A stretch of DNA of 64,000 nt from the NCBI GenBank assembly GCA_010093605.1, contig MU004195.1, positions 312,708-376,707 of the forward strand. The letters run 5' to 3'. A program made the translations under genes and the position numbers. The stretch comes from Lophium mytilinum (Eukaryota; Ascomycota; Dothideomycetes; Mytilinidiales; Mytilinidiaceae). The notes below the pieces were generated by a model. The model ran no database searches, was not told the DNA's origin, and saw nothing but the letters and a program-made list of their open reading frames with translations. Positions 44,682 to 62,905 of the stretch are shown in pieces; position 1 is the stretch's first letter; every line of letters begins with the position of its first letter.

Positions 44682-45287
44682 CTACGACCACAAATTGCGC
44701 ACTACTGCTGCCGCCATAAGAACTCCCAGAAGAGTGCGGATCACCCCCAGCACCCGCTCGCTCCCGAAGTACAAATGCGCATTCAAGAGGAGAGAGGGAA
44801 GCAGAACAGCGACAACAACCACCGCAAGCGTCCTGTTTACAGCCACAAAGCCAGCCAACTCGTGCTCCGCAAGCTCCTCTTCTTCCACCACTTCTAGGTA
44901 CTGGCGGAGGGTCTGTGCGATCCGCTCCAACGTCTCCCGGGCAGTCATGCCGTTCCTGATACCATGACCGACGGCGAGGTGGACGCGGAGGTCGAGCGTC
45001 TCCTCGAGGCTGGCGGCGACGGGCTCCAGGTTGTCGAAGTCGCCGGCGGGGTCGTGCGCCAGGTGCCGGAACGCACGGTTTTCGCTCTGCACGAGGAGGG
45101 TGGTGATTAGGGCGTGGAGGTCCGCGATTATGCCCGTCGCGGTCTCATTTTCCACTTCGCGGCAGACGGTGGCGTAGACGGGAGAAGTTCGTCTGAGCTC
45201 CGCGCGCCGCTGCTCGACCACGAAGGCCACGGTGGCGTTCTGTGGCTCGGACGCGGCGGGAGAGGTGGTGCGGGGGGTGTCCGACAT
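44682..45287 (-). CDS. P1: module-A protein with C-terminal membrane hairpin
   Basis: Single exon, 201 aa; start MSDTPRTTSPAASEP. Residues about 17-75 form module A: ATVAFVVEQRRAELRRTSPV, YATVCREVENETATG, LHALITTLLVQSEN. The same pattern appears twice in neighbour P2 and, more diverged, in P4 and P6-P9. After an acidic helix (VVEEEELAEHELAG) come two hydrophobic helices, LAVVVVAVLLPSLLLNAHLYF and VLGVIRTLLGVLMAAAVV, predicting a membrane hairpin with both ends on the same side. This is the only family member in the window with clear transmembrane segments. Function unknown. Minus orientation like P2-P8. A TATA-like TTATAAG lies about 150 bp upstream. Confidence 0.72.
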   Translation of the reverse strand: MSDTPRTTSPAASEPQNATVAFVVEQRRAELRRTSPVYATVCREVENETATGIIADLHALITTLLVQSENRAFRHLAHDPAGDFDNLEPVAASLEETLDLRVHLAVGHGIRNGMTARETLERIAQTLRQYLEVVEEEELAEHELAGFVAVNRTLAVVVVAVLLPSLLLNAHLYFGSERVLGVIRTLLGVLMAAAVVRNLWS

Positions 45288-45977
45288 GTTGGTGGATGTG
45301 GAGGATGTTTGACGCTAGATAGAGGTGTTAATAGGCTTGAAGTGGGTCGAGGACTGAGCCTGCTTGGGGTGATTGTGCAAACACTTACTTTGTGGAGTTG
45401 GTGTTTTGCTGAAGAAGGAAGTTTGGCTGTGCGAGCGGACTTATAAGTAGCGGATGCGAAGCTTTGTCGGCCGCCGAAGAGCCGGTGTGGAGGAGTGAAG
45501 GTGCTAGTGAAGGTGCTTGCTTAGGGCTGAGGAGCTGCAAGTACTGGACTTTGGGCGGCCATTGAGCTACTTCCTATTGATTATTCACGCTTTCACTAAG
45601 CAGCGGCGTCAAGTTGAGCACACTGCTGAAGCGGTGAGGCTGGAGATCGGGCAGTTTCGCAGGTACGCCACATTCACTTCGGCGCTGAGAGGTGGCCAAT
45701 ATAGCTATATGTTGCACTGATACGCCAATCACAAAAGGACGGAGAGATCTTCAATTCAGTGAGTCAAAAGGAGCAGTAATACTAGTCTTGATATCGATAT
45801 GACTATCTAAAAATGAAACAGACGAGAAGAAACATCGAAATAATCCCTGGACCCTGGGAGAACGAGGAACACCCCTAGTCTACCCCGTAGGTGCTCTGAA
45901 AAAACAACAGACAGTGCAATCTACGCTTTCTAAGTCGACCAAAAACATCGGGCCCCTGAGCCGCGAGTGATAGTCGT
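45288..45977. other. intergenic between P1 and P2
   Basis: Holds the P1 promoter. At 45670-45677 there is ACATTCAC followed by a CGGCGCTGAG word, similar to the element upstream of P5-P8 but further from its gene (380 bp). No gene seen. Confidence 0.4.
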
Positions 45978-46445
45978 CTAGTTGCCAGCCAGGAGGTGAT
46001 CGATCAAGGTCCACATATCAGACACAGTGCCAGTAGCCGTGCCGTTTGCTACCTGGTCTGTGACTGTGGCGTACACTGCTGAGGTCCTTTTCAGGTTTAG
46101 GCGACGCTGAATGACAAGGTATGCCATTGTTTGGCCCTTGCTCCACGGTGGTATGGTGGCTGTATCATTATTCTCGGCGTCTGTCGTAGCTGCCTCTGAA
46201 TCTTCTTCCTCCTCTCGTAATGCTCGCTCTCTCAAGCTTGCGTTTTCGTTTTCGACAAGGAGGCGGTCGACCAAGGCGTACAGCTCCCTGAGTGGGTTTC
46301 TTGCTATACCCCGTTCCACTTCTCTGGCGACCGTCGCGTAGGCAGGGTAAGTCTGCCTCAGCTCCTGGCGCCGCTGCTTGACCGCGAAAGCTACTGTCTC
46401 GTTGGCAGGCTCCGAGGAAGAGATGGCGTTGGTGTTGCTCGACAT
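45978..46445 (-). CDS. P2: protein made of two module-A repeats
   Basis: Single exon, 155 aa. Two copies of the same helical module: residues about 17-72 (ETVAFAVKQRRQELRQTYPA, YATVAREVERGIARNP, LYALVDRLLVENEN) and about 104-155 (QTMAYLVIQRRLNLKRTSAV, YATVTDQVANGTATG, MWTLIDHLLAGN). They are joined by an acidic linker (REEEEDSEAATTDAENN). The shared QRRxxLxxTxxxYATV core links it closely to P1, so P1 and P2 are probably a local tandem duplication. No signal peptide, no membrane segment, no known catalytic motif. A TATATATG box lies about 250 bp upstream at 46692, suggesting a leader intron. Confidence 0.72.
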   Translation of the reverse strand: MSSNTNAISSSEPANETVAFAVKQRRQELRQTYPAYATVAREVERGIARNPLRELYALVDRLLVENENASLRERALREEEEDSEAATTDAENNDTATIPPWSKGQTMAYLVIQRRLNLKRTSAVYATVTDQVANGTATGTVSDMWTLIDHLLAGN

Positions 46446-46899
46446 CTTGCGGTTCCAGATGTAAGGCTGGGAGTTTTTAGCGGAAGAGATAGGTCAGGGG
46501 CTCGGCCGTCAAGCGAGCCAAATGAAAGACAAACCTTGAGTACGTGGAGCGGAGTTGATCTGCTGGACAAAAAGAGCTCTGAAGTAAAGCTTCCGGTCCT
46601 TGTGGCTATACGAACGACTGGTGTGGTGGTGCCGTGGAGAGGTAGGCGTCGTTTTGCAAGGAAGATCTGGAGCTGGAACCTCGAGGGCACTTTATATATG
46701 CCGATGTGGATTATTAGATATTCACTGCCTTGGCTGTGTTTACAACATGCCTAGCTATCGGCGCAGACTTCGCGCTATTGGTGAGACTATGAGCCCAGAA
46801 ACCACCTGGCAAGTAGCTATTTGTTCACCTCTTGTTGGTATTACTGTATTACACACCGGTACGTCGACGAATGATCCTTGAGAATCAGGTATATAGCAA

Positions 46900-47690
46900 A
46901 CCTGCAGCACTATAGTAGAAGATTGAATACTCCACGAATCTGCTTGGGGTGTCCCGATCTGCTTTTGGAACTCTAAACACATGTAAGACTTTGGACAGTG
47001 GATATAGGACTTTCGTTTCACTGACCGGAGACTTTCTAACTGGGGCAACCCTTACAGTGGCATCTAGACTGCAAAAGTAGAGGCTGAGAATATCGATTTC
47101 TCACTTGATGCTTTTTAGACCTCCAGACGCGATGATAAACTCCACACTGTGAAAATCAGGCTACCATTTGATTGGGTGGTAACAGTCCAGCTGGGGTACT
47201 CCTGACGGTAGCATCTAGATTGTAAATGAAGGGCTGAGTAGGTCCGTTTATCGCTAATGGGCTTTTGTACCTCTAGGTACAATGTTGAACCCCATACACT
47301 GGAAATCGGGCTACCTTTTGATAGCTTGAAGACGTTGCAGCCGAGGTGCTCCTGAAAGTGGCATGAATGTAGCAAAAGAGAAGCCCGAGTACCTCCATTC
47401 ATTGCTGATACCCATTTCGGATACTAGGTGGATGTTAAACTCCACACAGTGGAAATTGAGCGCCCTTTTGTCCGAGCAAGGACGCTCCAGCGGGGGTACT
47501 CCGGACAGTGGTGTCATGCGAGCAAGAGAGGAGCCTAAGTATATCGGATTACTGCCACTAGGCTTTCAGACCTCCAAATCCCATGAAGTTTCTCCATGCT
47601 GTGAGAATAGGACTTCATTTTGGCTATTTAAAGAGTTGCTGGCGGGGGTACTCCCGACGGTGATGTCCTGCGAGCAAGAGTAGATAGGTT
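46900..47690. repeat. tandem repeat, about 150 bp unit, five copies
   Basis: Anchor words recur at about 47054 (CAGTGGCATCTAGACTGCAA), 47204 (GGTAGCATCTAGATTG), 47355 (AGTGGCATGAATGTAGCAA), 47504 (CAGTGGTGTCATGCGAGCAA) and 47657 (GGTGATGTCCTGCGAGCAA), that is every 149-153 bp. Each is preceded by GGGGTACTCC.GAC and, further left, by AACTCCACAC.GTG.AAAT and CTACC/CCCTTTTG words. A weak sixth copy lies at about 47875-47910. Related single or double copies lie at 56530-56613 and 58695-58970 beside P6/P7 and P7/P8. Noncoding; short frames across it change with each unit. Confidence 0.75.
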
Positions 47691-48106
47691 GAACAACCGT
47701 ATACCTATATATGCTCCGAAGGTGGATTGCTTCCCGGCTTGCCTCCAGTAAAGCTGACCTTCCTCGGGTGCAATCTGCAGGATCAGTTTCCACCGTATTA
47801 TGACCCAGTTTTAAGCACTATGGTTTGCACCAAACTACGCACCATCTTGCTAGACTTTGATGTGATGTCAAAGTACCCCTGACAGCGGCGACGTAGGTCA
47901 ATCAGAGCTGTTGAGATCCGATGAGATTCGTACTCTCTGGACTTTTACTTTTCATCCATGTTCAGATCAAAACACCAGGACACTCAGACACGGGCGAGCA
48001 GGTGTCAGAAACCTCTGTCCATGGGCTTAATATGTATGTACATCGCCGTTCAAACCCGGAATTATGGAGAAACCCTACTAATGCTGCTATTATCTACACA
48101 CGACTC

Positions 48107-48832
48107 CTATCTCCGAGAAATACACACTAGAGTTCGGAACACACACACCAGAGCGAACGTGACCTTGCAGCGCTCCACCTCTTCTCTGCACGCCTCTCCC
48201 ATGGCAGCGAGCACAGTCTGTTCATCTAGCGACAATAGTCTTGCGGCGTATCCGATGCTGTGGACTGCGTCCTGCAGTTGGCTAACTTCGTCGCTCAAAT
48301 CGGAGATTGGACGACGCAAGGCGACACAAGAGACGGTAGTTAGGACGGTGCTAAATTTCAGTCCGTCACCAATAACAGCTGTCTGGACAAGGATGGAAAT
48401 TGTAAGCTTGACGCGCTCGATCTTCGTCTTATGCCGGATCAACCATTGAATGAATAGCTCATGCCAAGCCAGGGAGTTTAGTTCTCTAGTATTCAATTGG
48501 ACTCCTCTTTCTTGCTTATACCTTAGGATTGCGTAATAAGGATCTGCGGCGCTGTGTTCTATCGGAGCTTCTGCGGCCAGCTGGAGTTGGACATCGATAG
48601 GGATTCTTGGAGGCAGCAGCGTTAATTCGGAGAGTTGCGTCAAGTATAGAACCCGATCCATTGTGAGCGACTCGAGAATTCTGTAGAGATTGTAAGTTAG
48701 TTCTGTTGCGCTATTGGAACGGGTGTAGAATTTTACGAGGGCATGGACTTGATGAGGTGTTTGTGGTATATATACGTGCTGTAAGGGGAGGTATCCTGAC
48801 GCAAGCTGGCGGACTAGAACATCAGCAGCCAT
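48107..48832 (-). CDS. P3: diverged member of the module-A family
   Basis: Single exon, 241 aa, start MAADVLVRQLASGYLP. Helical throughout. Residues about 95-135 (ADPYYAILRYKQERGVQLNT, RELNSLAWHELFIQWLIRH) match the second half of module A: a D-P-x-(Y/F) turn, a loop, then a helix ending in a hydrophobic-aromatic pair. Downstream helices (VKLTISILVQTAVIG, LSDEVSQLQDAVHSIGYAAR) are not clearly module B. It shares orientation, size class and surroundings with P1-P8. This is the least certain family assignment, and I recognise no outside homologue. Possible additional exons upstream were not found. Confidence 0.58.
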   Translation of the reverse strand: MAADVLVRQLASGYLPLQHVYIPQTPHQVHALVKFYTRSNSATELTYNLYRILESLTMDRVLYLTQLSELTLLPPRIPIDVQLQLAAEAPIEHSAADPYYAILRYKQERGVQLNTRELNSLAWHELFIQWLIRHKTKIERVKLTISILVQTAVIGDGLKFSTVLTTVSCVALRRPISDLSDEVSQLQDAVHSIGYAARLLSLDEQTVLAAMGEACREEVERCKVTFALVCVFRTLVCISRR

Positions 48833-49042
48833 TCTTTGTACTAGAGGCGGGAGTACAGACAGTTACTTGCGGCGTAAAGTCAGTTTCAGCAATCAGCCAG
48901 AGATGGAAGTTCCACGCGTAAAAAAGATCAGAGTGGAGGGGAAGGTGTTGAGAGCGGTTGATACTGGGCTACAGAAAAGTGGAAGCGTGCGCTTTGGGTG
49001 AGATTACACGTATTCTGCGAGGAGAAAGGTTGGAGATTAGCC

Positions 49043-49360
49043 TTATAGACATAGCGCACAGTCTTGCGTTGTTTTATTTGATCGCGAGGTCGGTGACGGA
49101 GGTGCCAAGCCAACTCCGACCATTTTGATATCGCGAAGCTGGTATACCTGAACACCACTAATCGAGCCCAAAACTAAACGAGGTGATTCAGGTACTATTT
49201 GAGTCGGCTCTTGGGATATTTCCACTTCCTTCCTTCCATAGTTCGCCTTGCTATCTATCACTGCCAGCTGGGACCGTCCCAACAAGCTCTCCGTCACCGC
49301 TAGAATGTATCCGCTCGAGCAACGACGAAGCATATCTACCACAGCTTTAGCAGCACTCAT
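49043..49360 (-). CDS. candidate small ORF between P3 and P4
   Basis: Open frame of 105 codons from MSAAKAVVDMLRRCSSGYIL, with a regular first half (ESLLGRSQLAVIDSK, EVEISQEPTQIVPESPRLVL) and a poorer tail. A GTATAC donor-like site after ISGVQ could splice it to something not found. It lies in line with the P family but matches neither module convincingly. Could be a truncated member or noncoding. Confidence 0.25.
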   Translation of the reverse strand: MSAAKAVVDMLRRCSSGYILAVTESLLGRSQLAVIDSKANYGRKEVEISQEPTQIVPESPRLVLGSISGVQVYQLRDIKMVGVGLAPPSPTSRSNKTTQDCALCL

Positions 49361-49845
49361 AGGTGATGATGTGCGCGGCGATATAGGCCACCTACCAAGG
49401 GCTCTCAGACTTCGCCCGCGTCTTCACCAGTCAAATCATCGAGCACGAGACTGCGCGCGCCAACACCCACCGAACTGTCTTCAGCGGAGCACCTTCGCGG
49501 GACTCTCCAAAATTTACAGGCTCAACATGAAATTTTCCCATCGCGCAAGAACACCAGAACACGGACTATTCACATGGAAAAGGTGTATTCTGTGAGTAGA
49601 AACCCCGCCTTAACCTCCCAATCCTATCTTAAAAATCCGAACCACAGCTGCCTCGACGTTATTATGGTAGTCGGTGTTGTATTTGCCAGTAAAGAGACCA
49701 AGTATCCGTCCAACCCGCTCCTCCAGAACCCGACCCACCCGTAGCCACCAATAACTCCATGACCTCTCATCCCGCTGATCGACACAAACCTACCTGAGGC
49801 CCACAGCCTCTCCTGAACACCTTCCGTGGCAGCGGATCTACTGTC

Positions 49846-50811
49846 TTAACGGCGTGTGGCTCGCGAAGCTTCAGTGACGAAGCCGGGGTTGAACCTTGGA
49901 GGGCGGCCGGAAGGCTTGATGCGTGAGCCGGGTTGGTGTGGAGTCGCAGGGCTCTGTATAGAAAGGGCTCGAGGGTCATCGAGATTGGGACGGCCGCGGT
50001 GGCCAAAGAAAGGCCGAGAAGATCGCCTGGAGCCCGGCAGAGAGCCGCCCTGGAGGTGAGACGGAGTGGTTGGGACGGCGACAACGAGTTCACGATGGGC
50101 CCTCATCGCAGCCGCAACCACCATTTCCTTCGCCGCCACCTGGCCGACACCCTTCTTGATGACCTCTTCGACCACGTTCACGATCTCTGGGTCCAGGCTG
50201 TCCTGGGCGGTGATGTTGGAGTTCGCGTCGTATGTCTGCACGCAGGAAACGACGCGGCGTACGATGACGTCAAGCTTTGCGCCGGTGAAGGCGACAGCGT
50301 CCTGGATATATTTGAGAATCGCCATATCGATGGGCTCTGAGATGGACAGGTAGGCGAAGTTGAAATGATCGACTATCTTCTGGTGCTCGGCCCAGTACGC
50401 GGCGTAGTCTCGATCGCTGACCCGCTCACCCAGTGTCACAAGAGCAGCCAACTGAGCGTGACGAGCTGAGTGACTCTTCACGTCTTCCCAGGCTCGCGCA
50501 ACTGCCTGAACGACGTTCTGATTGACAGGACCAGCCTTCTCATAGCCTGGATAGGCGCGGTGAAGCGGAGTCGGAGCGCTACGGGCGGGCTTGACTGTAG
50601 ACGTGTTCGATTCGGAGTCAGAAATGTCATCGACAGGAGAAGTATCAGAGTCAGGGCCCAGGCTGGCTTCGAGATCGTAGCCACCCTCCAGACCAATGAC
50701 CCGGAGCATTGAGGCGATCATCCGTAAGTAATACTCCTGTTTCAAACTGTTAGCCCTGAAGTAAGAACCCAAAACACCTTGCAATAAGCTTACCATTTCG
50801 TTGGACTTCAT
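49846..50811 (-). CDS. P4: module A + module B protein
   Basis: Exons complement(50794..50811, 49846..50736), 302 aa; MKSNEM|EYYLRM with GTAAGC donor, GCTAACA branch and CAG acceptor. The 57-nt intron is in frame and has no stop, so a retained form would add 19 residues. Module A lies at about 77-136 (VNQNVVQAVARAWEDVKSHS, YAAYWAEHQKIVDHFNF). Module B-like helices lie at about 140-220 (AILKYIQDAVAFTGAKLDVI, VRRVVSCVQTYDANS, DPEIVNVVEEVIKKG), lacking the Trp of other B modules. The acidic/Ser segment before A (PVDDISDSESNTSTV) and the basic Pro-rich tail (RPPRFNPGFVTEASRATRR) look disordered. No Gly/Asn-rich N terminus, unlike P5-P7. A likely 5'UTR intron lies upstream at about 50900-50955. 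Confidence 0.7.
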   Translation of the reverse strand: MKSNEMVSLLQGVLGSYFRANSLKQEYYLRMIASMLRVIGLEGGYDLEASLGPDSDTSPVDDISDSESNTSTVKPARSAPTPLHRAYPGYEKAGPVNQNVVQAVARAWEDVKSHSARHAQLAALVTLGERVSDRDYAAYWAEHQKIVDHFNFAYLSISEPIDMAILKYIQDAVAFTGAKLDVIVRRVVSCVQTYDANSNITAQDSLDPEIVNVVEEVIKKGVGQVAAKEMVVAAAMRAHRELVVAVPTTPSHLQGGSLPGSRRSSRPFFGHRGRPNLDDPRALSIQSPATPHQPGSRIKPSGRPPRFNPGFVTEASRATRR

Positions 50812-52253
50812 GATGCAATAACAAGAAAGAAGATCTTCTGTTGAATTTCGACGTTGATCTTGACCGAGGTGCCAATGATATCCGAGATCAAGTCGAAAGC
50901 TATAAGATCTTGCGTTAGATATCGTCCATATGAAGTAGAACCGGGGCTTGCATACCAGTGGAAGAGTTCACGAAAATTAGAGCTAGTTTGCAGTGCCGAA
51001 AGATTGATCTTTGCTTGATGTGATATAATCAGAACAGCGGATTGATTTGGAAAGATATAGGCTGTAGATCGGGGGGGAGGCTTCCTTAAGTGCCGCAGAC
51101 GATGCAGATTTCCAGGACTCCAGAAGCCGTCATGCGGGCGGCGCGCAAGTGAAGGCTCGAGGGTGAAGGTGTCGCGCGCCATCCAGCAGCGGTTGCAAGT
51201 TGCCAATCTTGCGGTGTGGAACGGATATTTGCGGGTCACGTTGATATCTTTACTCGGCGACTGTTGTTCTCCACTCCCATTGGGTCAGCAGGCCTTGAAT
51301 AGCTGATACTCTTGTTCTTCCGGCCGGTCATGATCGGACAATTGGTCCAAGAGCGTGATGAAGGTCTGTGACTGAGTCTTGACGTACCTACGCGAACATA
51401 TCATATATAGGGGCATACGATAGCCCTTCAGGCGCAAGAAGCATAACATTCGGCTTGATCCGAACTGACGTGGAAGCAAGCCAAATAGTGGCTATTGAGT
51501 TCGTACATATTGTCAGCAATGCACTGTAGGTCGAAGCCCTAACCTAATTTATAGCTATACATACCAATGATACCCTTTGGACTCGCGCTACCTTTGACTT
51601 AAGCTGTTCATTCACTCTTCCCCAATGGCATCGTGCAACGCTCCGCAACCCCGATGCATACCTAACTCTAGCACCGTTCAAGGTCACAGGTTTGGGCAAA
51701 CAGACATCTCACTCCCCGGGTTCTACTTTTGCTCGCTCGACCTGACTGTGAGGTGTACCCAGCTAGCATATCTTCAATTAGTCAAACAGTAGCACTGTGG
51801 CTACCACTCCAGGCTCGCATATTGAAATACCGTGAAGAAACGCAAGGGTCGCTCAATATTGTGGTCAAATATAGCGTCATGACAAGTTGTTATCATATCG
51901 CAATTTCGTTCCATTAGTCGTACTAGCACAGTTCACAATATTGCTGACGGTTTGATGTATATACAAGTAACCGTTCCATTAAGCCACTCCATTAAGCTGC
52001 AAGAGAAATCGCTACCGACAGCCACCAAACTCCGCCCCAGGTTTGCAAAGAGGTCAGAAACTACAGCTATGTGAAGGGACACCACAAAATGGAAGCTTCA
52101 TGGATACTGGGCCTATCGGCTGACCTTCAGCCCTTCCTTCCCCTAGCGACATCTAATCAAACGCCCATTAGACTTGATTCATTCTCGGGGCTGTGTGGAA
52201 GCAGTATTCTACTGCTAGGAAAGAAAGACAGCAGACTTGGTCTAGCGAACCGC
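50812..52253. other. intergenic between P4 and P5
   Basis: About 1.4 kb. The first 150 bp hold the P4 leader with a probable intron (GTATGC donor, TCTAAC branch, TTATAG acceptor). No other gene. A 321-codon plus-strand frame starting at 52071 runs almost wholly antisense to P5 and is its shadow. Confidence 0.45.
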
Positions 52254-53629
52254 CTATGGGCAGACCTTTTTGGCTGCCCCCCAAACCATTCTCCGGATCT
52301 CTCCCTCCTTGAAGGAATTCTTAGCACCCCAGTTGATAAGCTGTGTAATCAAAGAATGATCAGAATTCTGGGCAACACCATCGATTGGTCGCCCCGTAGG
52401 CCACATTGCAGCAAAAGTGATGCGACGGACGGCCGTCTCAAGGCTTGCCCCCTCCTTGATGATCTTCTGGATGTGCGCCTCAACCATTCGAACGACGAAC
52501 CTCCGGTCCTCTTCAGCCTTCGCAGCCGCTCGGAAATCATTCTCCATATGCTTGTTATTCATCGCAGAGACGCGGGGGTTGCCAGGAGCGGGATGGCCCA
52601 ACTCCTGACGCAGAACTTGCTTAGATGTACCGTTGGCACGGAGCGGAGATTTCGAAACCTGGTCGTGGGCCTTTTGCGACGGGTCCTGCGAGTTTTCCCC
52701 CTTCTTAGATTGGAATGGAAGATATCTGGCCGGCGCATTCGCGATCAGAGTCCGGACCTCGTTCAGGTCTATACAGCCCTCTTTGCACCACTTCAGGATG
52801 TCCACGATGACTGGATTACGATGAGAATCATTATTCGGATTCATCCAGGCCGTGTCCCAGCGAGTAGCAGTCTCCTGGATTGCGTGCGTGATTTCGTCAT
52901 GCGTGAAGCCCCTCTCGATGCATATCGTGATGTAGATACGGATTGCCTGTTCGATGAGTTTGATCTCAGGTTCAGTCAAGTTATGAAGGGCTGCCTTCCC
53001 CCGATCCTGCATAATCTTCTCGGTGTCCTCTTCTGATAGAGAACGCCAAGCCATTCTCACAACGTGAGCGATGACAGTTTCCGTGTGCGATTCTGGACGG
53101 GGTTCAAGCTTCGGAGCAACGACGAGAGGTTGGCCTACAGATGGAGCCCCACCGCGCTGCTGCTGATTGGGAGCATTCATGGCACGGATGATGCTCTGCG
53201 CTTGCTGCTGCTGAAGCTCTTCGACATCTTTGGGGCCAGGAAAGGTGCCTGTACGGTCTCCCATGTAGTAGATGTTCTGAGTGCCAATACTGAGTGCACC
53301 TGAAGTAGAAGTGTTGTGGGAATGACTGTCTTGGTTGCCATGTCCTGCGTGAAGGTGGCCTGGACCGGACAGCAAATTCTCTGGTGATCCAAAGGCTGGG
53401 TTTTGCTGCGTACCATGGCCTGATTGAATGATAGAAGGGCGTGCGTCGTAGTTCGGGCTCTGCCAATGATTGCGGTGATCGGGTATAGTGCCATCACCAT
53501 TGTAGGCTGAGCCGGTGACAGGCACTCGACGAGCAGACATGCCTGTGGGAAGCTGGTTTGTAGACTAGGAGTGCTTTGTTAGTTCCAGAAGAATCAGCGT
53601 CAAAGATGAAAAGGGCGAGGTCTTACCAT
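52254..53629 (-). CDS. P5: amyloid-like N terminus with two module-B repeats
   Basis: Exons complement(53627..53629, 52254..53564), 437 aa; the first exon is the ATG alone (donor GTAAGA, CTAAC branch, CTAG acceptor). N terminus M|STNQLPTG parallels P6 and P8. Then comes TIPDHRNHWQSPNYDARPS (paralogous to P8) and a Gly/His/Asn/Gln tract (GHGTQQNPAFG, GHGNQDSHSHN, IGTQNIYYMG; about 48-102). A Gln-rich linker follows. Module A is reduced (VVRMAWRSLSEED). Module B1 lies at about 199-282 (AIRIYITICIERGFTHDEIT, TRWDTAWMNPNNDSHRNPVI, VDILKWCKEG) and B2 at about 350-437 (MVEAHIQKIIKEGASLETAV, TQLINWGAKNSFKEGEIRRM). No enzyme motif. Start at the inner Met (MSARRVPVTG) is possible, but conservation of STNQL with paralogues favours the spliced ATG. 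Confidence 0.78.
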
Positions 53630-53836
53630 TACGGCTCTCCTTAGTTGCGTGGATACTATGATGGTGTTTGTCGGAGAAAACAAGCTGATAGGGGCTTTGT
53701 GGTTGCTTTGCTGACTAGTGGTGTGGTAACAAGGAATGGTGTGGTGATATTATGAGTAGAGGTGGTGGAGAGGGTGCTTTATATGATGAAGAAGAGATTT
53801 CATCTTGCTGGGGAGGGAGTTTCGAGCCCTGCTGAA

Positions 53837-54627: not shown

Positions 54628-56179
54628 CTAAGCCAGCTTGGACGCCTCCTGTTTGATCATCAACCTGAGATCTCGGCCTCGCTTACCGCGGGCTCGTCCC
54701 CAACTCAGAATGGCATATACGAGATGATCAGCTGCATTAGGAAACCTAACACCACCATTCGAGTGTTTGCTAGCATTTATGAGCCGGTCTTTGATCAAAC
54801 TCAACTGTGCACCTTGTTTAGTGCAATCTCGAACGTGTGTGTTGATCTTCTGTGCGACATAGCTCCGATCTTGGATGCGGTTTGAGATCTCCTGAGACTC
54901 CTCTTCGTTCTCAAGCTCTTGGGGGGCGACATTCGTGGGGAGCTTAGGGGCACGCTGATTGGAGGAAGTCGGCGCGCCAGGAGTCTGAGGCTCTACACGC
55001 TCTTCCCGTGGTTGCTCGACAGGCACAGATTGGCTAGCCCTAGGACCCTGTGCGCTCTGCTGGCCTTCCACTACCTGAGAGTCCTTCTGGATTGCTGTAG
55101 AAGCGATGAGAAACCGCACCTCGTTCTTCTCTAGTTTCTGTGCATCGCCCCAATGCACCAAACCCTCAATCTCGCGTTCAAGACAGAGGGGATCATGACC
55201 CTGGGGGAAAGGACCGCTTGGATCGTATGAAGCGGTAATCTCGACGATCTTGCGAACAATGTCTTTGACGTCGTGGCCATCCTCGACCCCATTGCGGATG
55301 GCATGTTCAACCATGTCGTCGATGAAATTCTTGTGCCATGCGGTGGCCTTGCGAATAGGTCCACGTATCGGTTCCTCCTCAACGACCGTATGACTCTCAA
55401 GATCTTCTCGTACCTTTTGCTCTTCTTGTGTCTGATACTGCTGGTCCTGCACAGGGGCTTGGCCTTGCAAATATTCTGCATTGTAGCGATCAATCAGCTC
55501 TTGGTACATCTGCACGAACTTTTCGTAGTAGACTTGTGGAGCAACTGCATGAACAACATGATTGACAACGTTGTCTACTTCCGGATCCTCGGTCTGCATA
55601 CGTATCCATTCTTGCACCACGGCGTTGGATACCGCGAAGGTAAGAGGCGCCTTGTTTTCATGGGAAGGGCCTGGGGTTCCAGGGAGATTGCCGCTAGCCC
55701 AGGCAGGCTGGAATCCATATTGGCCGATATCAGGATGTCCTTGCTGGTGTCCTAGATTTGCGAACGTGTCTCGTCCAGCCTGAGGCTGTGGGTACTGTGC
55801 GGGGAATGAGGCGGAGGGTGGTACCGGGAAAGCTCCCATCGGAGGGTGCTGATAGGCGCTTTGACCGTCCGGCGCCGTGCCAGGGGGGAACATAGTCGGC
55901 GGGCGCGTGTAGAAGTTGACGACGTGGCCAACTGAGCCATTGTACTGGGTTCCTTGGCCTGCATTGGCTGGTCCGGACCCCGAATTGTTCAGCGCTCCCG
56001 AACCCGTATTGTTCAGCGCTCCCGGCCCATTGTTGAATACAGTAGGGCGTTCGGAGTAACTCCGATCGTCCTCGTCACTGTGGCCCTCGGGCATGTTGGT
56101 GGTATGAGGGTTGGTAGACTAAGGGTTCGGTCAGGCCTACTGGAAACTAGTTAAAGGAAGGAGAATTTTCTCTTACCAT
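54628..56179 (-). CDS. P6: amyloid-like N terminus, module A and two module-B repeats
   Basis: Exons complement(56177..56179, 54628..56118), 497 aa; ATG-only first exon with GTAAGA donor, as in P5 and P8. N terminus M|STNPHTTN, then RSYSERPT (compare PNYDARPS in P5) and tandem short repeats NNGPGAL-NNTGSGAL-NNSGSG, then GQGTQYNGSVGHVVNFYTRP (about 30-75). A Pro/Gln-rich linker follows. Module A lies at about 166-220 (VVQEWIRMQTEDPEVDNVVN, QELIDRYNAEYLQ). B1 lies at about 259-345 (TAWHKNFIDDMVEHAIRNGV, IVRKIVEITASYDP, IEGLVHWGDAQKLEKNEVRF) and B2 at about 420-497 (INTHVRDCTKQGAQLSLIKD, VYAILSWGRARGKRGRDLRL, IKQEASKLA). The G-x-G-x-Q-x-N tract is like those before or after cell-death domains in fungal NLR systems. 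Soluble; no signal peptide; function unknown. Confidence 0.8.
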
Positions 56180-56293
56180 GGTATGACTTCTGGAGATGTT
56201 GGGTTAGTGGTGTGGGGAAGAAGATAATGTATGGTGTGGTATGGTGTGTTGTTGAGGTGAAGCAGTGTGTTAATTCAACTAAACTGTTTGTTC

Positions 56294-56347
56294 AAATAGT
56301 GCAACTTTAAGTTTGGCTAACATTCACAAGGATTCGCTGCCTCATGT
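56294..56347 (-). promoter_or_regulatory. shared ACATTCAC promoter element, P6
   Basis: AAATAGTGCAA (56295-56305), then a TTTAAGTTTG word, then ACATTCAC (56320-56327) and AAGGATTCGCTGCCT, about 140-185 bp upstream of the P6 ATG. The block from AAATAGTGCAA to the CGC.GCCT word is shared with the P7 promoter at 58454-58506. Confidence 0.5.
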
Positions 56348-56529
56348 CCGGCGCCAGTGGTCGTGGTGCCTGGAAGCAACCACTGTGAAACTAGACCATT
56401 CTGATACAAACTAACCAATAAAATTGCACACTTGAGACACCCTGCGAAAGTTCAGGATCAATTCAATGATATCTACTTAGCGTGCCCTGACAAGCTTCTA
56501 GAACACTGGATTACATCGTAAAGTTGGAT

Positions 56530-56613
56530 ACGGTCTGAATCAATCTACCCTTTGGTTCACCGACAATCCCCTATGCAGGGTTCCTCTCACAGTGGTATCA
56601 AGCGAGCAAAAAG
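56530..56613. repeat. single copy of the roughly 150-bp repeat family
   Basis: Contains CTACCCTTTGG, then GGGTTCCTCTCACAGTGG and TATCAAGCGAGCAAAAAG, matching the anchor words of the tandem array at 46.9-47.7 kb. Lies between P6 and P7. Confidence 0.55.
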
Positions 56614-56805
56614 AAAGACCAACTAAGTCTATACCTGCGTGCTTTGGGTTAGTGATGCAATCCTTTATCCTCAGCTATTGAATTTAGTATTTCAAGCACA
56701 AACACACCCAGGTCTATCGAGTTATTTCTCGAAAATACTCCCCAACGCTCTTTTCAGGAAATACCGCAACGTACAGGTAGGAAGCCTCCATGTCTCGAGT
56801 AACTT

Positions 56806-58356
56806 CTACTGGATCTTGGCCGTCTCCTGCCTGATCATCGCCCGAATTATGTCGCCTCGTACACCATTCCCCTGCCCCCACTTTAGCAGCTCACACACAA
56901 CACGTCGCGGTGGATGTCGTTCGCTTAGTGGTGCACTTCCAGGTTGGTACCATGAAGCTCTCGTGAGGTCACGAGTAACTAGTCTCATATCTCCGCCTGA
57001 TTTAACGCTTCCCTGAACGTACGTCTCGATTGTTTGGCGGATATACTTCTGAGTCTGCTCGTCCTTTTCCTCGCGCTGGGTGGCCTTCGTAGGTTCGAGC
57101 TCCTTCTGAGACGTCTCCGCTGCTAACGGGAGGAGCGTACTGACACGACGAGGATTGCCAGGACGCATGGGGATCTGTACAGCCTGAGGAGCAACACCGG
57201 TCTGAGCGTTCTTAGTGAGAACGAGTTTCTCAGTCTTCTTGCTCTCTTTAAGGGCTTCTTCGATGAGCGAAAGGTGACCAGTGGCACCAACCCGTTTCTT
57301 CTGGCGATTCAAGATTGCCGTAGCGCTTTTACGGATCGCTGTAGCTCGGCTCTGAATTAAAATCTGGGCCTCGTCTCTTCCGATTTCATGCTCAAGGCAC
57401 CATTTAATCAGTCCCTCAACCATAGGATTGGAGTGTTCAGGGTTCTCCTCGCGGAACTTCGTCTTGTAGTAGGTAGCAGTCAGAGCGATACCTCGAATGA
57501 CATCGGCGAAGTGGCCGCCATCTTCAACACCGTTTCTAATAGCCATGTCGACCATGTCATTGATAAACTTCTTATCGGAGGCTGTGGCCCTGAGGACTGG
57601 TCTCTGGACCCATTCATTTCCCTGGTGTAGGTTTGTGGGTGACGGAACCTGAAGAGCTTCATGGTTGGATAGAATCTGAGTATTCGCAGCTTTTCCAATC
57701 GGGTCAGCCTGCATTGCCATACGCTCTTGCGCTCGCAAACGTTCCGCATTGCATTGCTCGATTAGTTGCTGGTTGATCTTATTGTAAAGGGCGTAGTCGT
57801 CCGGAGTTGCAACTCGGTGATCTACATGCTCCTTGATTCCGGCTATCGCTGGATCGTAAGCTTCGAGGTGTTGCCAGCACTTCGAAACGGCGTCGGCAGC
57901 TATTTGATCTATAGGCCCAATATCGCTAAGGCGATTAGGTCTTCCTAAGGAAGCCCCGTGCTGCTGCTGTTGGGGAGCGAAGGGAGCGAAAGGATGTCCT
58001 CCCGGCTGCTGTCGCAGGTGTTCTGCCGGCATCAGGCCTGAGGGAGGTACAACTGCAGTCTCCATGGGATGGTCATGGTGGGCGCCATCTGTACCACTTG
58101 GATCATAGGCAGTATTACTCAGGGGCAATGGGTAGTACGTGTTGTGCTGGACTCCTATATGAACCTGGCTGGGGCCATTGTAGTGGGCAACTTGGCCTGT
58201 ATGAACGCGACTATGTTCATTATACTGGTACCCTTTGCCATTCCGGGCTGAGCCAGGTACGACTGCGCCATGAAAGGGGTTTCCCTGGGTACCTTGTCCT
58301 GTGTTTGTTGCAGCAGGATGGAATCCGGGCGGCAAGGTATGGCGGGCGGACATCAT
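56806..58356 (-). CDS. P7: amyloid-like N terminus, module A and two module-B repeats
   Basis: Single exon, 516 aa, start MMSARHTLPPGFHPA (compare MSARRVPVTG in P5). Residues about 18-75 hold the clearest repeat tract: TGQGTQGNPFHG, NGKGYQYNEHS, TGQVAHYNGPS, IGVQHNTYY, four to five units of a G-x-G-x-Q-x-N type. A Gln/His/Pro linker (APQQQQHGASLG) follows. Module A lies at about 153-208 (DAVSKCWQHLEAYDPAIAGI, YALYNKINQQLIEQCNAERL). B1 lies at about 258-344 (TASDKKFINDMVDMAIRNGV, GIALTATYYKTKFREENPEH, VEGLIKWCLEHEIGRDEAQI) and B2 at about 425-516 (YIRQTIETYVQGSVKSGGDM, VCELLKWGQGNGVRGDIIRA, IRQETAKIQ). No known catalytic site. Upstream frame extends 36 codons without a good ATG, so the MM start is chosen. 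Confidence 0.8.
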   Translation of the reverse strand: MMSARHTLPPGFHPAATNTGQGTQGNPFHGAVVPGSARNGKGYQYNEHSRVHTGQVAHYNGPSQVHIGVQHNTYYPLPLSNTAYDPSGTDGAHHDHPMETAVVPPSGLMPAEHLRQQPGGHPFAPFAPQQQQHGASLGRPNRLSDIGPIDQIAADAVSKCWQHLEAYDPAIAGIKEHVDHRVATPDDYALYNKINQQLIEQCNAERLRAQERMAMQADPIGKAANTQILSNHEALQVPSPTNLHQGNEWVQRPVLRATASDKKFINDMVDMAIRNGVEDGGHFADVIRGIALTATYYKTKFREENPEHSNPMVEGLIKWCLEHEIGRDEAQILIQSRATAIRKSATAILNRQKKRVGATGHLSLIEEALKESKKTEKLVLTKNAQTGVAPQAVQIPMRPGNPRRVSTLLPLAAETSQKELEPTKATQREEKDEQTQKYIRQTIETYVQGSVKSGGDMRLVTRDLTRASWYQPGSAPLSERHPPRRVVCELLKWGQGNGVRGDIIRAMIRQETAKIQ

Positions 58357-58453
58357 GGAGGGAGTATCGATGTTGGTGTAATGTGGTGTGTTGTGTTGTG
58401 GTGTCTGGTGGAATAGAAATGTAAAACAACGAAGAAATAAAGAACGAGGCTCT

Positions 58454-58506
58454 AAATAGTGCAAGCTTCATGTTTGATGGACATTCACGTAAACCTCGCG
58501 GCCTGT
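58454..58506 (-). promoter_or_regulatory. shared ACATTCAC promoter element, P7
   Basis: AAATAGTGCAA (58454-58464), TTCATGTTTG, then ACATTCAC (58481-58488) and a CCTCGCGGCCTGTT word, about 125 bp upstream of the P7 ATG. Strongest match to the P6 element. Confidence 0.5.
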
Positions 58507-58659
58507 TGACGCCCCCCGCGTCCCAATGAGGGCAGTGAAAGTTGACCTCTTCCACAGGTAGCGACTTAAGAGTGGGCTGCACGCTTCAAATAGGCCTGGA
58601 AAGCTTAATGATAGTGTGTGGTTACAGTGACAGGCCACAAATCTGGGCACACTGGTACG

Positions 58660-58975
58660 CCACTGGTTGGGGTTACTCCATAGGGTTCCGAATACTCAAG
58701 GACGATGTCAAGCTTTAAGTAGTGCAGATTAGACTGCCTCTTGACTTGTTGCTTGCTCAGCAGTCAGGCTACCCCCTACAGTGGTGTTGAATGAGCAACT
58801 TTGGAGTTTAGTAGTACCAGATTCGTGTGTCTAGACTTACGGACGTCTAAAGACGATGTCGAATTTCAAGCAGTGCAGATTGGACTGCCTTTTGACTAAT
58901 GACCTGCTTAGTAGCAAAGCCACCCCCTACATTGGCGTTGAGTGGGCAAATTGGAGCCGGATTCGTGCCAGACTT
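58660..58975. repeat. two tandem copies of the roughly 150-bp repeat family
   Basis: GACGATGTC recurs at 58701 and 58852 (151 bp apart), each followed by a TTTAAGTAGTGCAGATT / TTTCAAGCAGTGCAGATT word, ACTGCCT.TTGACT, GCTCAGCAGTCA / GCTTAGTAGCAA, CCCCCTACA and GTGTTGAATGAGCAA / GCGTTGAGTGGGCAA. The TTTAAGTAGTGCAG word also resembles the promoter block upstream of P6 and P7. Confidence 0.65.
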
Positions 58976-59268
58976 GTGGCCTAGGAATGTAAGTAGGCCT
59001 CAACTAGTGTAATCAACAAACTAAGAGTTTTGAGTATTAAACTTGAAGTCGGAAGCTATAAAAACACATATTCACGGGATATTATGATTCTAGAGGACTT
59101 TGATGCAGAGAAGTTTGAACTTGTGAGGGAGTCTACCTAGGATGAGGGGAATACCATGTACCTATCCGCTCTACTGCTTCACTCCTGCTTCCTAGTTTCA
59201 GACGGATGTTTCGAAGCCTTCGGAAAATCTGGGGAACATGACCTGGGATCACCGATCGTTCCGTCCAG

Positions 59269-60787
59269 CTATCCATCTAGTTGCTTGGCTTCTTTGGGAA
59301 AGAACTTCGACACGTAACGCGAGGGTAGGTTCAGCTTGCCAGGCTGAGCTTCCACTGGCTCACTCATCGCTGGTACCCGAGCTTCCACACGCTTCTCACT
59401 GTGCTCCTCCCCGGCACCCTTGGGCTGGAACTTCTTTGGCAACTCGCGCGGCTTCTGGGGGTCTCCAGGTGCGGCGAGAACGACGGGCAAGTTTGGCTCT
59501 ACAGCTCCTAGGCCAGGCATCGCCGTAGGACGGCCGAGCTGGCGATCCGAGCGCATCGTGGTCTTCGACACGAGCGAACTCCTGTCGCCGAGCTTCTCGG
59601 AGGCTGACTTGGGAGCAAACTTCTTGGGAAGCTGGCGTGTCGTCTGGGCATGGCCAAGAGCGTTGAAGCCGCTGTTGGGCTGTGTGAGCACTGTCTCACC
59701 CGCTGTTTGGAAACCCGTCGTCTGTGTGGGCATATTGGGTCCACGAAACTCCCATGGAGTAGAGTAGTGCTTCTCAGCCGCCGCTTTGACAATGGCCCTG
59801 AACCCATCCTGCTCGATTCCTTGGTCTTTGCCCCACTGAAGCAGGTCGACAATCACAGGTTCTGACAGTGAAGGATCATCTGGGTTGCCCCAGGAAGTGC
59901 CCCAGCAGGCCGTAGTCCGGACGGCCACGTGAACCAACTCCACAAGCTTAAGGCCATGATAGAGGCCAGTGTGGACGTATTTATCGAGGATCGCGTTGAT
60001 GAAGTTGACTTCGGCGTCGGTAGCTTTGTGGGCAGGCGTTCCGCGCACATCCTCAATCTTGTTGAGCTCGTCGGGTGTCATGGCGCCGGTGGCGGCTGCG
60101 AAGATGTGTCTCATGATGCCCTGCACATGGATGCGGTTGGCCTCGTCGGTAGCGCGACGGGCAGCGTCCTCCTCCCACTTCGAGTTGTGGTGCTTCACCA
60201 ACGTCTGGTTGACTTCGCCGAACTTTGCGTGATCCTGCTGCGTGCCAACACCTCGCGCCACTCTATTGAGAAGCGCGCCAAAATGTGGGTCGTTGCGGGA
60301 GGCCTCGAGCAGGGACTTGTTCACCGAATGCGCCACTTCCTCGTTGAGTGGGGTGTAGTGGTTTGGGTGTGGATAGAACGCGGCGTCGGGTTCTGCCTGA
60401 CTTGGATGAAAGATGGCAGCGCTCGCAGTGAGCTTGGAGTGGTTTTCGGCCATGACGGGGCCTTTGCCTTGTTGCTGCTGCTGTGGGGGGGAGTTGTCTC
60501 TGGCAACACTTCCGCTGCCTCGGTGCTGCGCTTGGGTGTTCTGCGAGCCACTGGCAGGATGAACTGTGGAAGCTGGAGTAGGGCGCGCTGAATAGTTAGG
60601 GTCCTTCCAGAAGTTTATGTGACCGGGTGTGATGCTGTCGTCGCTATTGAATGAGCCGGGGAGGGAGGGGGGAGACTCGCGGCGCTCGGTGATGGGGAGC
60701 AGCTGGTTAGTGGCCTAGGAGTGGTCAGTTCGCTCTCTCAAATCTACAGACATTGAAACAAAATGGAGTGGGAGGCGCTCTTACCAT
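59269..60787 (-). CDS. P8: module A and module B protein with Gln-rich N terminus
   Basis: Exons complement(60785..60787, 59269..60714), 482 aa; ATG-only first exon with GTAAGA donor and CTAG acceptor. N terminus M|ATNQLLPITERRESP parallels STNQL of P5. SITPGHINFWKDPNYSARPT matches P5 closely. A Ser/Gln/Asn tract (ASGSQNTQAQHRGSG, PPQQQQQGKG) replaces the regular Gly-Asn units. Module A lies at about 125-180 (VNKSLLEASRNDPHFGALLN, KFGEVNQTLVKHHNSKWEED). B lies at about 231-318 (ATDAEVNFINAILDKYVHTG, CWGTSWGNPDDPSLSEPVIV, DLLQWGKDQGIEQDGFRAIV). Instead of a second B module, the C terminus has two or three short basic repeats, RQLPKKFAPK, RELPKKFQPK and LPSRYVSKFFPK. These may be linear binding motifs. 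No enzyme signature. Confidence 0.78.
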
Positions 60788-60978
60788 TGCGTGTGCTTGT
60801 GGTTGACTGAAACACAGGCTGATGCTAGAAGCGGCGTGGGCTGTTTTGCTACTGTGCGTCGAGATGGGTCGTGGGAGCAAGAAGATATGAGGAGGAGTGT
60901 GGGTGTGCTGGAGCAAGTTGACGAGGTTAAGAGACGTTGAATCAAATAACAGAGGCTGGTAGACTTGAGCGTAGTTGA

Positions 60979-61004
60979 CATTCACCTGAACCACGCCTAA
61001 GCGA
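60979..61004 (-). promoter_or_regulatory. shared ACATTCAC promoter element, P8
   Basis: ACATTCAC (60979-60986) followed by CTGAACCACGCCTAAG, about 190 bp upstream of the P8 ATG. Weaker match after the core than P5-P7. Confidence 0.42.
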
Positions 61005-62350
61005 ACATGAACGTCGACCTCTCGCCAGGGAGCACACAGTGAGTCGAAGCGGGGCATCTGACAGGCTGGTAACTATCTAAGCCGATATTCAGCGGGTGAT
61101 AACTGCGGTTTTTCTCGGCGTGCGAGACGTTGACGGCCAACTTGAGGATCACATAGGAGCAGCGGACACAAACGCGAGGCACCAATAAAAAACTTGCGTA
61201 TGAAACACAAGAACTGAACCATTGAGAGTGATATAGAGAACTAGAAAGGATACTAGACACCACGAGTTGATCTACCTTGAACCACTGACTCCTCGAATCC
61301 ATGAAGTTGTGACAAACTTCAAACGTTTCCTTCATCCGCAACAGCGCAAACATATTCAAGAGAGTTTAAATACCTCTCGTGGAACGTGGGCTGGTCTCTT
61401 CTCTGCAAGCAGTCCTACTATAACCTGAATATAGCCTAAGTGGACAAATTCCCATTCTAACAGGCATTGATGTTGTGCGAATGTCGTCAATTTTAACGTT
61501 CCTTGGTTCCACTCGCCTAGGCGACGCCATTCTATAGATCATTTCCACCACATTTCCTAATCTAGCCTGCGGCATGCTAGTAGCGAAGCACAGAAGCCGT
61601 TATGCCGTATTGCCTCTACCATTATAGTTGTGATTTTCGGACGTTCTTCCGGTAATATCCATAAGGGCTCAACTTGATGTTATTGTCAGTCGACCCGGCA
61701 TCCGGACGCTCGCGCCATTGAGGCTTAGGCTATTGGCGGAGATGTGGGCGTGAAGTGTAGCTATTGTCGCCTTCCTATCGTGGCCTTGCTATTGTCGCCA
61801 CTGCTATTCATCCGCTGCCTTATTGAGCACGTGCCGCTTCCACGGCCTAGATATAAACCTCCTCAATAGCCGCGAGTCCACCATCTTTCCTACACAACAC
61901 AAACCTCGCCACATCACCACTGCCTTTGCTCTCCAACCGGCAGGTCTTGACTCACTTCGGGCAACCTCAAAGTACGGAAAGATCTCCCCTCCTTCGCTCT
62001 GATTTGCAGTGCACTGACGAAAAGTTCAAGATCTCGCCCTCAACCACACAACAGCGACACTTGCCTTGCAACTGAGCTCGACTACTCTGAAGCCCTCCAA
62101 CGCACCAACTCGTAAGTCAGGACGTCATCGCCTTCACTCCAATTTCCAGTGCACTAACAAATGACCTCAAGATCTGCATCGAAATCGAGTCTCTGACCAG
62201 TTAACTCAACTCAAGTTACCACCGCGATCACAAGGTACGTCAACAGCATATCCTCCAACCGCCTCGACCCACTGAAGCTTCCTCAAGTCCTCAATCCACT
62301 CTGCAAAACATTGACTGATCCTGCACAGCTCCACATTCGCAGTTAGCAAG
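61005..62350. other. intergenic, divergent promoters of P8 and P9
   Basis: About 1.3 kb. Contains a short local repeat (CTATTGTCGCC, 61758 and 61790) and a TATA-like GATATAAACC at about 61850 for P9. A direct duplication follows in the P9 leader: TTTGCAGTGCACTGAC near 62024 and TTTCCAGTGCACTAAC near 62142, each followed by TCAAGATCT. The leader may contain introns (GTAAGT at 62113). Confidence 0.45.
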
Positions 62351-62905
62351 ATGTCCAACTCCGCCACCTTTCCCAACGCCCCCCTCTCCGAGGCCACGCG
62401 CGATGCCATGCACGGCCTCCGCGTTGAGCACGGCAAGCGCTTCCCTGGCTACCGCAACCTCCTGGCCGCCTGCGACGCGGGCCTCGCCACCAACGCCGAG
62501 GTGGATGCCTTCTTCACGATCGAGGGCCACGTGCAGGAAGTGGCCTTGGCCGAGCAGAGCTTGCACCAGGCCAAGCGTGAGCTTCGACTAGCTGTTCTCA
62601 AAGTCGAGGTCTCGAACGAAAGAGAAGCCGTCCAGGCGCCTGTGGCTCTGGTCAACGGCGTGCACGTCTTCACGTTCGCTCAAAACACCGCCAACTTGGA
62701 CAGTGCCCCCGCGGTCGGCGACAACCTCGTCACGGAGAGTGTGCAGATGGAGGAGCCGCTCCGTGCGCGCGATATGGCTGAGGTCGAGGGTACTATTGAC
62801 GAGTGCCTTGAACAGATGGTCAACTTCGGCCGGGTCCAAGGCATGGATTTCGCGGCCGTGAAGCAGCGTATCCTGGAGAAGCTGGAAAAGGCTCGCGACG
62901 CCTAG
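62351..62905 (+). CDS. P9: short module-A family member on the opposite strand
   Basis: Single exon, 184 aa. Module A lies at about 12-72 (LSEATRDAMHGLRVEHGKRF, PGYRNLLAACDAGLATNAEV, DAFFTIEGHVQEVALAEQ), with the G-x-A-T-x-x-x-V/D turn also seen in P1, P2 and P7. A helical linker follows. The C-terminal helices VEGTIDECLEQMVNFGRVQG and MDFAAVKQRILEKLEKARDA resemble the first half of module B. No Gly/Asn tract and no Trp motif. It is the only family member on the plus strand, divergent from P8 across 1.5 kb. Codon use is strongly C/G-ending, suggesting better expression than its paralogues. Function unknown. Confidence 0.75.
   Translation: MSNSATFPNAPLSEATRDAMHGLRVEHGKRFPGYRNLLAACDAGLATNAEVDAFFTIEGHVQEVALAEQSLHQAKRELRLAVLKVEVSNEREAVQAPVALVNGVHVFTFAQNTANLDSAPAVGDNLVTESVQMEEPLRARDMAEVEGTIDECLEQMVNFGRVQGMDFAAVKQRILEKLEKARDA

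Follow-up and report, generated by a model that had tools for sequence, protein, structure and literature searches.

An orphan family of paralogous genes that share two modules at a single locus of the Lophium mytilinum genome

PB1, SAM and DIX are modules that polymerise head to tail. Another group of described systems comprises the NLR-associated amyloid motifs sigma, PP and PUASM (PMC5485727, PMC9815663); as given in PMC9815663, the fungal motifs PP (NxGxQxGxN) and PUASM (FxGxGxQxxGxGxF) have G/N/Q patterns similar to those described below. The locus that we present here, in the dothideomycete Lophium mytilinum, encodes proteins with two modules, A and B, and with tracts that also contain Gly/Asn/Gln G-x-G-x-Q elements near the N-terminus. 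It differs from the NLR-associated systems in that its proteins (P1-P9) have no Pfam motif, NLR or effector domain. By sequence comparison, P1, P2 and P4-P8 are paralogues that share module A, module B or both, and make up an orphan family confined to one locus of the genome.

The nine open frames are all present in the window (the whole 64,000-nt stretch of DNA analysed), eight of them on the minus strand and P9 on the plus strand, in agreement with the first-pass annotation, which had described nine genes within 18 kb, eight of them on the same strand. For P7, the first ATG is at 58356, and the start listed earlier (58464) is a TTG. A codon-usage model trained on seven other long frames in the window scores the own frame highest for all nine genes, with a small margin for P3 (0.087 versus 0.051). 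The stretches that separate the genes of the cluster contain dispersed repeats of 150 bp. A six-frame profile scan of the window and about 30 kb on its right (1932 pieces; the profiles include the found copies except P4's B) identifies 7 copies of A, spread over 6 frames, and 8 copies of B, spread over 5. Every copy falls within P1, P2 or P4-P8, and the best scores elsewhere are 9.4 bits for A and 5.6 bits for B.

Modules were evaluated with leave-out profiles, from which the protein under test is excluded, against two controls of 1000 shuffles each, one plain and one keeping the hydrophobic/polar pattern. Module B appears twice in P5, P6 and P7 and once in P8, with 46-62 bits for the best copies and 27-47 bits for the second copies, and it is also present in P4 (15.2 bits). 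In all five proteins, the best copy is equalled by none of the shuffles of either kind, which bears out the B copies as they had been annotated. Module A scores 16-42 bits in P2, P6, P7 and P8, again with 0/1000 in both controls. The first copy in P2 reaches 15.8 bits with a profile without P1 and P2 (0/1000 shuffles), and the second is 52% identical over 58 aa to the A of P1. The A of P1 obtains just 1.5 bits from the profile without P1 and P2, a score reached by 15 plain and 48 pattern-keeping shuffles out of 1000; we accept it on the P1-P2 alignment (52% identity over 71 aa, E 9e-20). The A position of P4 has 2.6 bits, under a chance stretch of P4 with 3.5 bits, and is accepted because of the P4-P7 alignment (E 4e-4; 0/300 shuffles), not because of the profile. 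The annotated distribution of A therefore stands by profile for P2 (two copies), P6, P7 and P8, and by pairwise alignment only for P1 and P4. The weak traces of A that had also been reported are not confirmed. In P3, 470 plain and 533 pattern-keeping shuffles out of 1000 reach the score, and the trace in P5 is better read as a helix preceding B1 that is common to P5 and P8 (P5 152-273 aligns with P8 109-229, E 1e-15). P6 and P7 align at E 2e-43 over a region that takes in the tract. Set against shuffled sequences, the comparison named in the first-pass annotation, the proteins align better for B in P4-P8 and for A in P2 and P6-P8. This does not extend to P3, where B is matched by 142 and 226/1000 shuffles and the composite A+B profile by 59/2000. 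P9 is marginal (A, 108 plain and 82 pattern-keeping shuffles out of 1000; B, 26 and 29; composite A+B, 29/2000; pairwise with P2, 0/300).

The layouts are as follows, all on the minus strand except P9. P1 (44682..45287, 201 aa) has A at 45078-45239 and two C-terminal hydrophobic segments (about 44697-44828), with hydropathy peaks of 2.31 at aa 154 and 1.97 at aa 179. Upstream of these segments, a possible degenerate first half of B (44895-44990) is reached by 1/2000 plain shuffles with the composite A+B profile; we report it as tentative because the B profile alone is matched by 12 plain and 47 pattern-keeping shuffles out of 1000. P2 (45978..46445, 155 aa) includes two copies of A, at 46242-46403 and 45981-46136. 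P3 (48107..48832, 241 aa) is a coding-like frame within the cluster whose membership in the family is unsupported. P4 (49846..50811) includes A (50347-50523), a B of the B1 type (50086-50331) and a basic tail; its spliced model of 297 aa starts at ATG 50794-50796, with a predicted intron of 57 nt at 50737-50793. P5 (52254..53629; start exon ATG 53627-53629, predicted intron 53565-53626) has a disordered tract, B1 (52722-52967) and B2 (52263-52508), and lacks A. In P6 (54628..56179; start exon ATG 56177-56179, predicted intron 56119-56176), a G-x-G tract (55903-56043) and a conserved Pro-rich segment (55735-55902) precede A (55468-55641), B1 (55084-55335) and B2 (54634-54870). P7 (56806..58356, 516 aa from the first ATG) has the tract, A (57736-57909), B1 (57328-57576) and B2 (56812-57054). 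P8 (59269..60787; start exon ATG 60785-60787, predicted intron 60715-60784) has A (60175-60345), a module of the B1 type (59767-60012), a basic tail, and also an N-terminal disordered tract on the spliced exon, which has to be added to the architectures listed in the first-pass annotation. The P8 tail includes three copies of LP[KS][KR][FY] (59602-59634, 59413-59445 and 59287-59331), a number found in 0/5000 shuffles for a pattern that we picked after looking. P9 (62351..62905, plus strand, 184 aa) is a coding-like frame at the right end of the cluster.

In P4, P5, P6 and P8, the predicted intron lies directly 3' of the ATG. These introns are 57-70 nt long and have a GTAAG donor, and their branch-like sites are 10-14 nt away from the acceptor; in P5 and P8, another acceptor is possible 12 nt further on. 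No start-codon intron was found in P7. An alignment of the sequences upstream of P5-P8 has short blocks in common when judged by eye only, and we draw no conclusion from it. Among the predicted start-codon introns, that of P8 alone is mirrored by a deposited model (BU16DRAFT_542535, NCBI, 586 aa), which has the same splice. For P6, splicing extends a 488-aa frame by 9 aa, and an identical 488-aa protein is in the database.

None of the nine proteins has a Pfam match at the curated cut-off (best E 0.059), nor is there a Pfam match for BU16DRAFT_542535 or for BDZ99DRAFT_475279, the relative described below. The best NCBIfam match, among models intended for bacteria and archaea, is far below cut-off (E 0.034), and two family profile searches of PDB sequences give nothing under E 0.75. 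No paper listed by the literature searches, which cover few subscription journals, has a title or abstract on the A/B family. Within the 43.2-Mb L. mytilinum genome, protein searches with P1, P2, P3, P4, P5, P7, P8 (as BU16DRAFT_542535), P9 and the P6 tract as queries place all clear relatives in this cluster. Protein-database searches return one relative in another species, the uncharacterised BDZ99DRAFT_475279 of Mytilinidion resinicola, from the same fungal family. Its tract and its modules A, B1 and B2 follow one another as in P6, with a shorter B1-B2 linker and a shorter G-x-G tract, and it is 52% identical to P6 by BLAST over all of P6 and 58% identical over alignment A1. These results agree with the earlier statements that no known family is recognisable and that the family is local and lineage-restricted, so far to these two species. 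A homologue search with P1 and P2 returned 0/5459 candidates at E 10 or below, P1 and P2 themselves included, and P5 and P7 are likewise not returned by a search whose query alignment contains them. The searched collection thus seems to lack P1, P2, P5 and P7, and missing hits in it are weak evidence for the absence of relatives elsewhere.

A tree of the B copies separates the b1 and b2 groups (82/85; 88% of 200 bootstrap trees), with no branch at the program's star level and with long-branch warnings that apply. Because of this separation, the ancestor was likely a gene with the layout [disordered tract]-A-B1-B2, and the other layouts would have appeared by loss or truncation instead of the shuffling by modules that had been suggested. 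The predicted start-codon intron common to P4, P5, P6 and P8, and the restriction of relatives to the cluster in the searches of the own genome, support a likely descent from one gene by tandem duplication. The ancestor would have had, in this order, the start-codon intron, the disordered N-terminal tract, A, B1 and B2. After duplication, P5 would have lost A; P4 and P8 would be without B2 and have other basic tails instead; P1, which has hydrophobic segments, would retain A and perhaps half of B1; and P2 would have only A left.

Module B is predicted with confidence as a four-helix domain (pLDDT 90), and no fold of the PDB is clearly recognisable as a match to the model. The model of module A, with three helices, has low confidence (pLDDT about 50). 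The two types of B differ in charge. The five B1 copies have net charges of -6, -2, -3, -4 and 0, and the four B2 copies of +10, +7, +6 and +7, with a B2 pI of 10-10.7. Aligned positions are charge-swapped between them, as in column 18, with EEEYE in B1 and KKKK in B2. The split holds for three paralogues and for one orthologue; it may be one inherited event and not a maintained function. The B of P4 has a net charge of -2, the basic tails of P8 and P4 have +8 and +10, and the B1-B2 linker of P6 is acidic (-6) and could neutralise the B2 of the same chain.

The highest conservation within P6 is in residues 65-120 (55735-55902), a disordered Pro/Gln-rich segment with pLDDT under 50. By comparison with a single orthologue, BDZ99DRAFT_475279, 46/55 residues of the segment are identical (84%), and 31/33 in its core (55741-55839), versus 76/163 (46-47%) in the B modules (Fisher p 1.5e-6, for regions picked after looking) and 71% in module A. 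The family had been described as fast-evolving, which fits the B modules but not this segment or A. Versus the paralogue P7, the segment (19/52) is not better kept than B1 (33/81).

Based on these features, we tentatively favour, with less than even confidence, the reading that this orphan family encodes cytoplasmic scaffold or adaptor proteins, which would act by B1-B2 pairing and by docking of the conserved segment. B would be a protein-binding module, and because of the acidic/basic split we judge B1-B2 pairing, within or between molecules, to be its most likely action, which would produce short chains. The members with a single B, P4 and P8, would terminate the chains, and P1 would tie them to a membrane via A-A contacts, a guess given that module A is modelled poorly. 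The conserved disordered segment would dock onto a conserved partner. For a basic B2, nucleic acid or an acidic lipid would be an equally possible ligand.

In a rather unlikely reading, the family would bind RNA or DNA, with the basic B2 and the Gly/Asn/Gln/Pro-rich tracts forming ribonucleoprotein condensates and the acidic B1 regulating them. All four B2 copies (+6 to +10), the basic tails of P4 and P8 and the disordered tract would fit, but the B of the single-B members is acidic, neither Pfam nor the PDB sequences yield a significant match to a family that binds nucleic acids, and no nucleic-acid-binding fold stands out in the structure comparison of B. We give a similarly modest chance to proteins with a structural or developmental role in the cytoplasm of hyphae or fruit bodies, such as septal-pore or cell-end proteins. 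Proteins of this type are often disordered and lineage-specific, and the disordered tract with helical modules, the restriction so far to one fungal family and the hydrophobic segments of P1 are consistent with them, but there is no sequence match. A domesticated leftover of a mobile element or virus is highly improbable. The 150-bp repeats could be read that way, as could the best match of B to a viral model, an unnamed 108-aa protein (probability 0.89, TM 0.57, E 0.30); against it, Pfam gives no match to a family of viral, transposon or phage type, the predicted introns are of spliceosomal type, and the copies occur in the cluster only.

Non-self recognition or regulated cell death is an unlikely alternative of another kind, in which the G-x-G-x-Q tract would be an amyloid-type signal, B would recognise or regulate, and P1, with its two hydrophobic segments, would be the membrane effector. 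The tracts of P5-P7 contain elements such as SGHGTQQN, AGQGTQYN and NGKGYQYN, similar in pattern to the PP and PUASM motifs as given in PMC9815663. The G-x-G counts, however, are not above shuffles in the tracts of P5, P6, P7 and M. resinicola (p 0.15-0.66), and are so in P8 alone (p 0.04). Up to E 1, Pfam gives P1-P9 none of the amyloid motifs or domains of such systems, and the nine proteins have no HET (PF06985), NACHT or NB-ARC domain; the sigma motif (PF17106, NACHT_sigma) has no match in P1-P9 and none at E 10 genome-wide. A HET-domain gene (PF06985) does lie at 39846-41729, about 3 kb from the cluster, and would be the most evident pointer to the role in conflict or recognition that the family may have, as the first-pass annotation suggested. 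We discarded this adjacency as a sign of an incompatibility locus: the 43.2-Mb genome holds at least 152 HET matches (a lower bound, 150 of 274 candidates having been scored), by which a cluster of 18 kb should have about 0.1 of them within a few kb, and the neighbouring gene thus carries no weight.

To return to the family itself, it has separable parts: a compact, confidently modelled helical module without a recognised relative, the charge split, and the conserved disordered segment. If B1 and B2 make no contact, this is an ordinary orphan family. Lineage-restricted clusters are common, and the L. mytilinum locus lends itself to the question of how a new domain originates and diversifies within one tandem array. 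In its most complete form the scaffold proposal is distinctly doubtful: a helical module restricted to the Mytilinidiaceae, with a fold outside the PDB, would pair head to tail in its acidic and basic versions into a scaffold, half-lost copies would become chain terminators or membrane anchors, and a disordered segment, not a folded one, would be the most conserved functional element. Compared with PB1, SAM and DIX, the family differs in that B is a four-helix module and P1-P9 have no Pfam domain at cut-off. The likeness is in the proposed action only, that of small serial modules with complementary charge.

Of the nine neighbouring genes P1-P9, at 44682-62905, seven (P1, P2 and P4-P8) encode proteins that share one or both of two helical modules, A and B, and where B occurs twice its copies are split by charge into a first, acidic or neutral B1 and a second, basic B2. 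Against pattern-keeping shuffles, used as controls for the modules, A and B in the core members come out stronger, and the half B of P1 and the A of P4 weaker. None of the nine proteins has a Pfam match above the cut-off, and NCBIfam likewise gives nothing above its cut-off. As far as database and literature searches go, the family is undescribed, in agreement with the first-pass annotation, which recognised no published family in it.

Within Lophium mytilinum (Mytilinidiaceae, Dothideomycetes according to a taxonomy look-up) the family is restricted to one locus. The assembly has 43.18 Mb in 24 contigs, of which C15 holds the window at positions 312708-376707. Protein searches of this genome with P7, P2, P8, P4, P9, P3, P1, P5 and the tract of P6 (its disordered N-terminal G-x-G stretch) as queries return matches in the cluster plus three strays, on C7 (E 0.19), C19 (E 0.11) and C2 (E 0.52). 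The searched protein database contains an entry identical to P6, and it contains P8 in spliced form as P0003 (BU16DRAFT_542535, Lophium mytilinum). With P6 as query, 4524 candidates yield two at E <=0.01, namely P6 itself and its Mytilinidion resinicola relative P0002, and a five-row profile leaves 3 of 5558 at E <=0.1, which are P6, P0002 and P8. The query combining P1 and P2 leaves none of 5459 candidates at E 10, with P1 and P2 themselves seemingly outside the collection. The collection indeed seems to lack P1, P2, P5 and P7, none of which returned itself, so that these searches cover other species only in part where a lack of relatives is concerned.

In a tree of ten B copies (nine plus that of P4, which is counted in no group), a single branch divides b1 from b2 (82/85; recovered in 88% of 200 bootstrap trees). 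The program stars no branch of the tree and warns of long branches. Shuffles as low as this branch number 3/500 and 2/500. The sole B of P8 falls on the b1 side, as does the B of P4, there in an unresolved fork. Because b1 and b2 separate in this tree, A-B1-B2 is the likely, if not certain, ancestral layout. B2 is missing from P8 and P4, and P1 may retain half of a B1. Residues 152-273 of P5 align with the helix preceding B1 and with B1 itself in P8, an alignment which indicates that module A is lost in P5. P6 scores 58% against P0002 over alignment A1, a protein alignment, and 32% against P7; since P6 is thus closer to P0002 than to its paralogue, the duplication that gave rise to P6 and P7 is probably older than the divergence of Lophium and Mytilinidion. 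A short frame at 46717-46824 on the minus strand has a weak match to module A (E 0.15 in 1932 pieces) and is possibly a decayed copy.

Gene structure offers evidence of common descent that does not depend on the protein alignment. In P4, P5, P6 and P8, GTAAG directly follows the start codon, a seemingly unusual position for an intron, and opens a predicted intron of 57-70 nt after which the reading frame continues. These predicted introns carry a branch-like CTAAC or CTGAC 10-14 nt 5' of the acceptor; in P5 and P8 an alternative acceptor may lie 12 nt downstream of the first, and the second exon starts with (S/A)TN in P5, P6 and P8. P7 is without a start-codon intron. The deposited model P0003 mirrors the start-codon intron of P8. 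At 60788-61359, P0003 also has about 100 extra residues 5' of the ATG-intron start of P8, probably untranslated leader taken as coding.

Comparison of P6 with P0002 reveals an inverted pattern of conservation, in which a disordered segment is better kept than the folded B modules. Segment 65-120 of P6 keeps 46 of 55 aligned residues, and its core, 86-118, keeps 31 of 33. The G-x-G tract keeps 28/38 with 9 gaps and module A 41/58, as against 39/84 for B1 and 37/79 for B2. The remaining disordered parts are not kept well (14/32 in the spacer at 119-150, 22/44 in the linker between A and B1, 19/31 with 40 gaps in the linker between B1 and B2). Fisher tests give p 1.5e-6 for the segment against B and p 0.002 for A against B, for regions that were picked after inspecting the data and in a single species pair. 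Between P6 and its paralogue P7 the pattern is gone (segment 19/52, B1 33/81, A 18/58, B2 25/79).

Several repeats and genes lie around the family. Intergenic repeats of about 150 bp occur at 47039-47680, 56574-56612 and 58698-58956. They form a tandem array between P2 and P3 and recur upstream of both P6 and P7, and diverged copies are found at C1:1994397-1994793 (67%) and C19:166699-166851 (71%). A 17-bp tandem repeat, TACTGTGGTATCAGGCG, at 38336-38405 resembles by eye the core of these 150-bp repeats. A 97-bp tandem repeat at 44048-44252 (about 80%) has an inverted partial copy at 43888-43973, the whole spanning 43888-44252. The gene at 17717-19366 encodes a CPAF-like PDZ domain and an S41 peptidase (PF23658, PF03572). 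The tail of P8 (59269-59767) contains the motif LP[KS][KR][FY] three times.

Most likely, we infer, the family forms a cytoplasmic scaffold in which B1 would pair with B2, and the conserved disordered segment would be a docking site for a conserved partner. RNA binding and structural roles are competing readings of lower probability. So is non-self recognition, in line with the conflict or recognition systems to which the first-pass annotation likened the family. A HET-domain gene does lie nearby at 39846-41729 (PF06985, E 4e-30), but the genome has at least 152 HET matches, this gene among them, which makes it uninformative as a neighbour; a whole-genome profile search detected no sigma motifs. 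Orphan families in tandem are a known kind of thing, and what is new here is the module and its charge-split pair.
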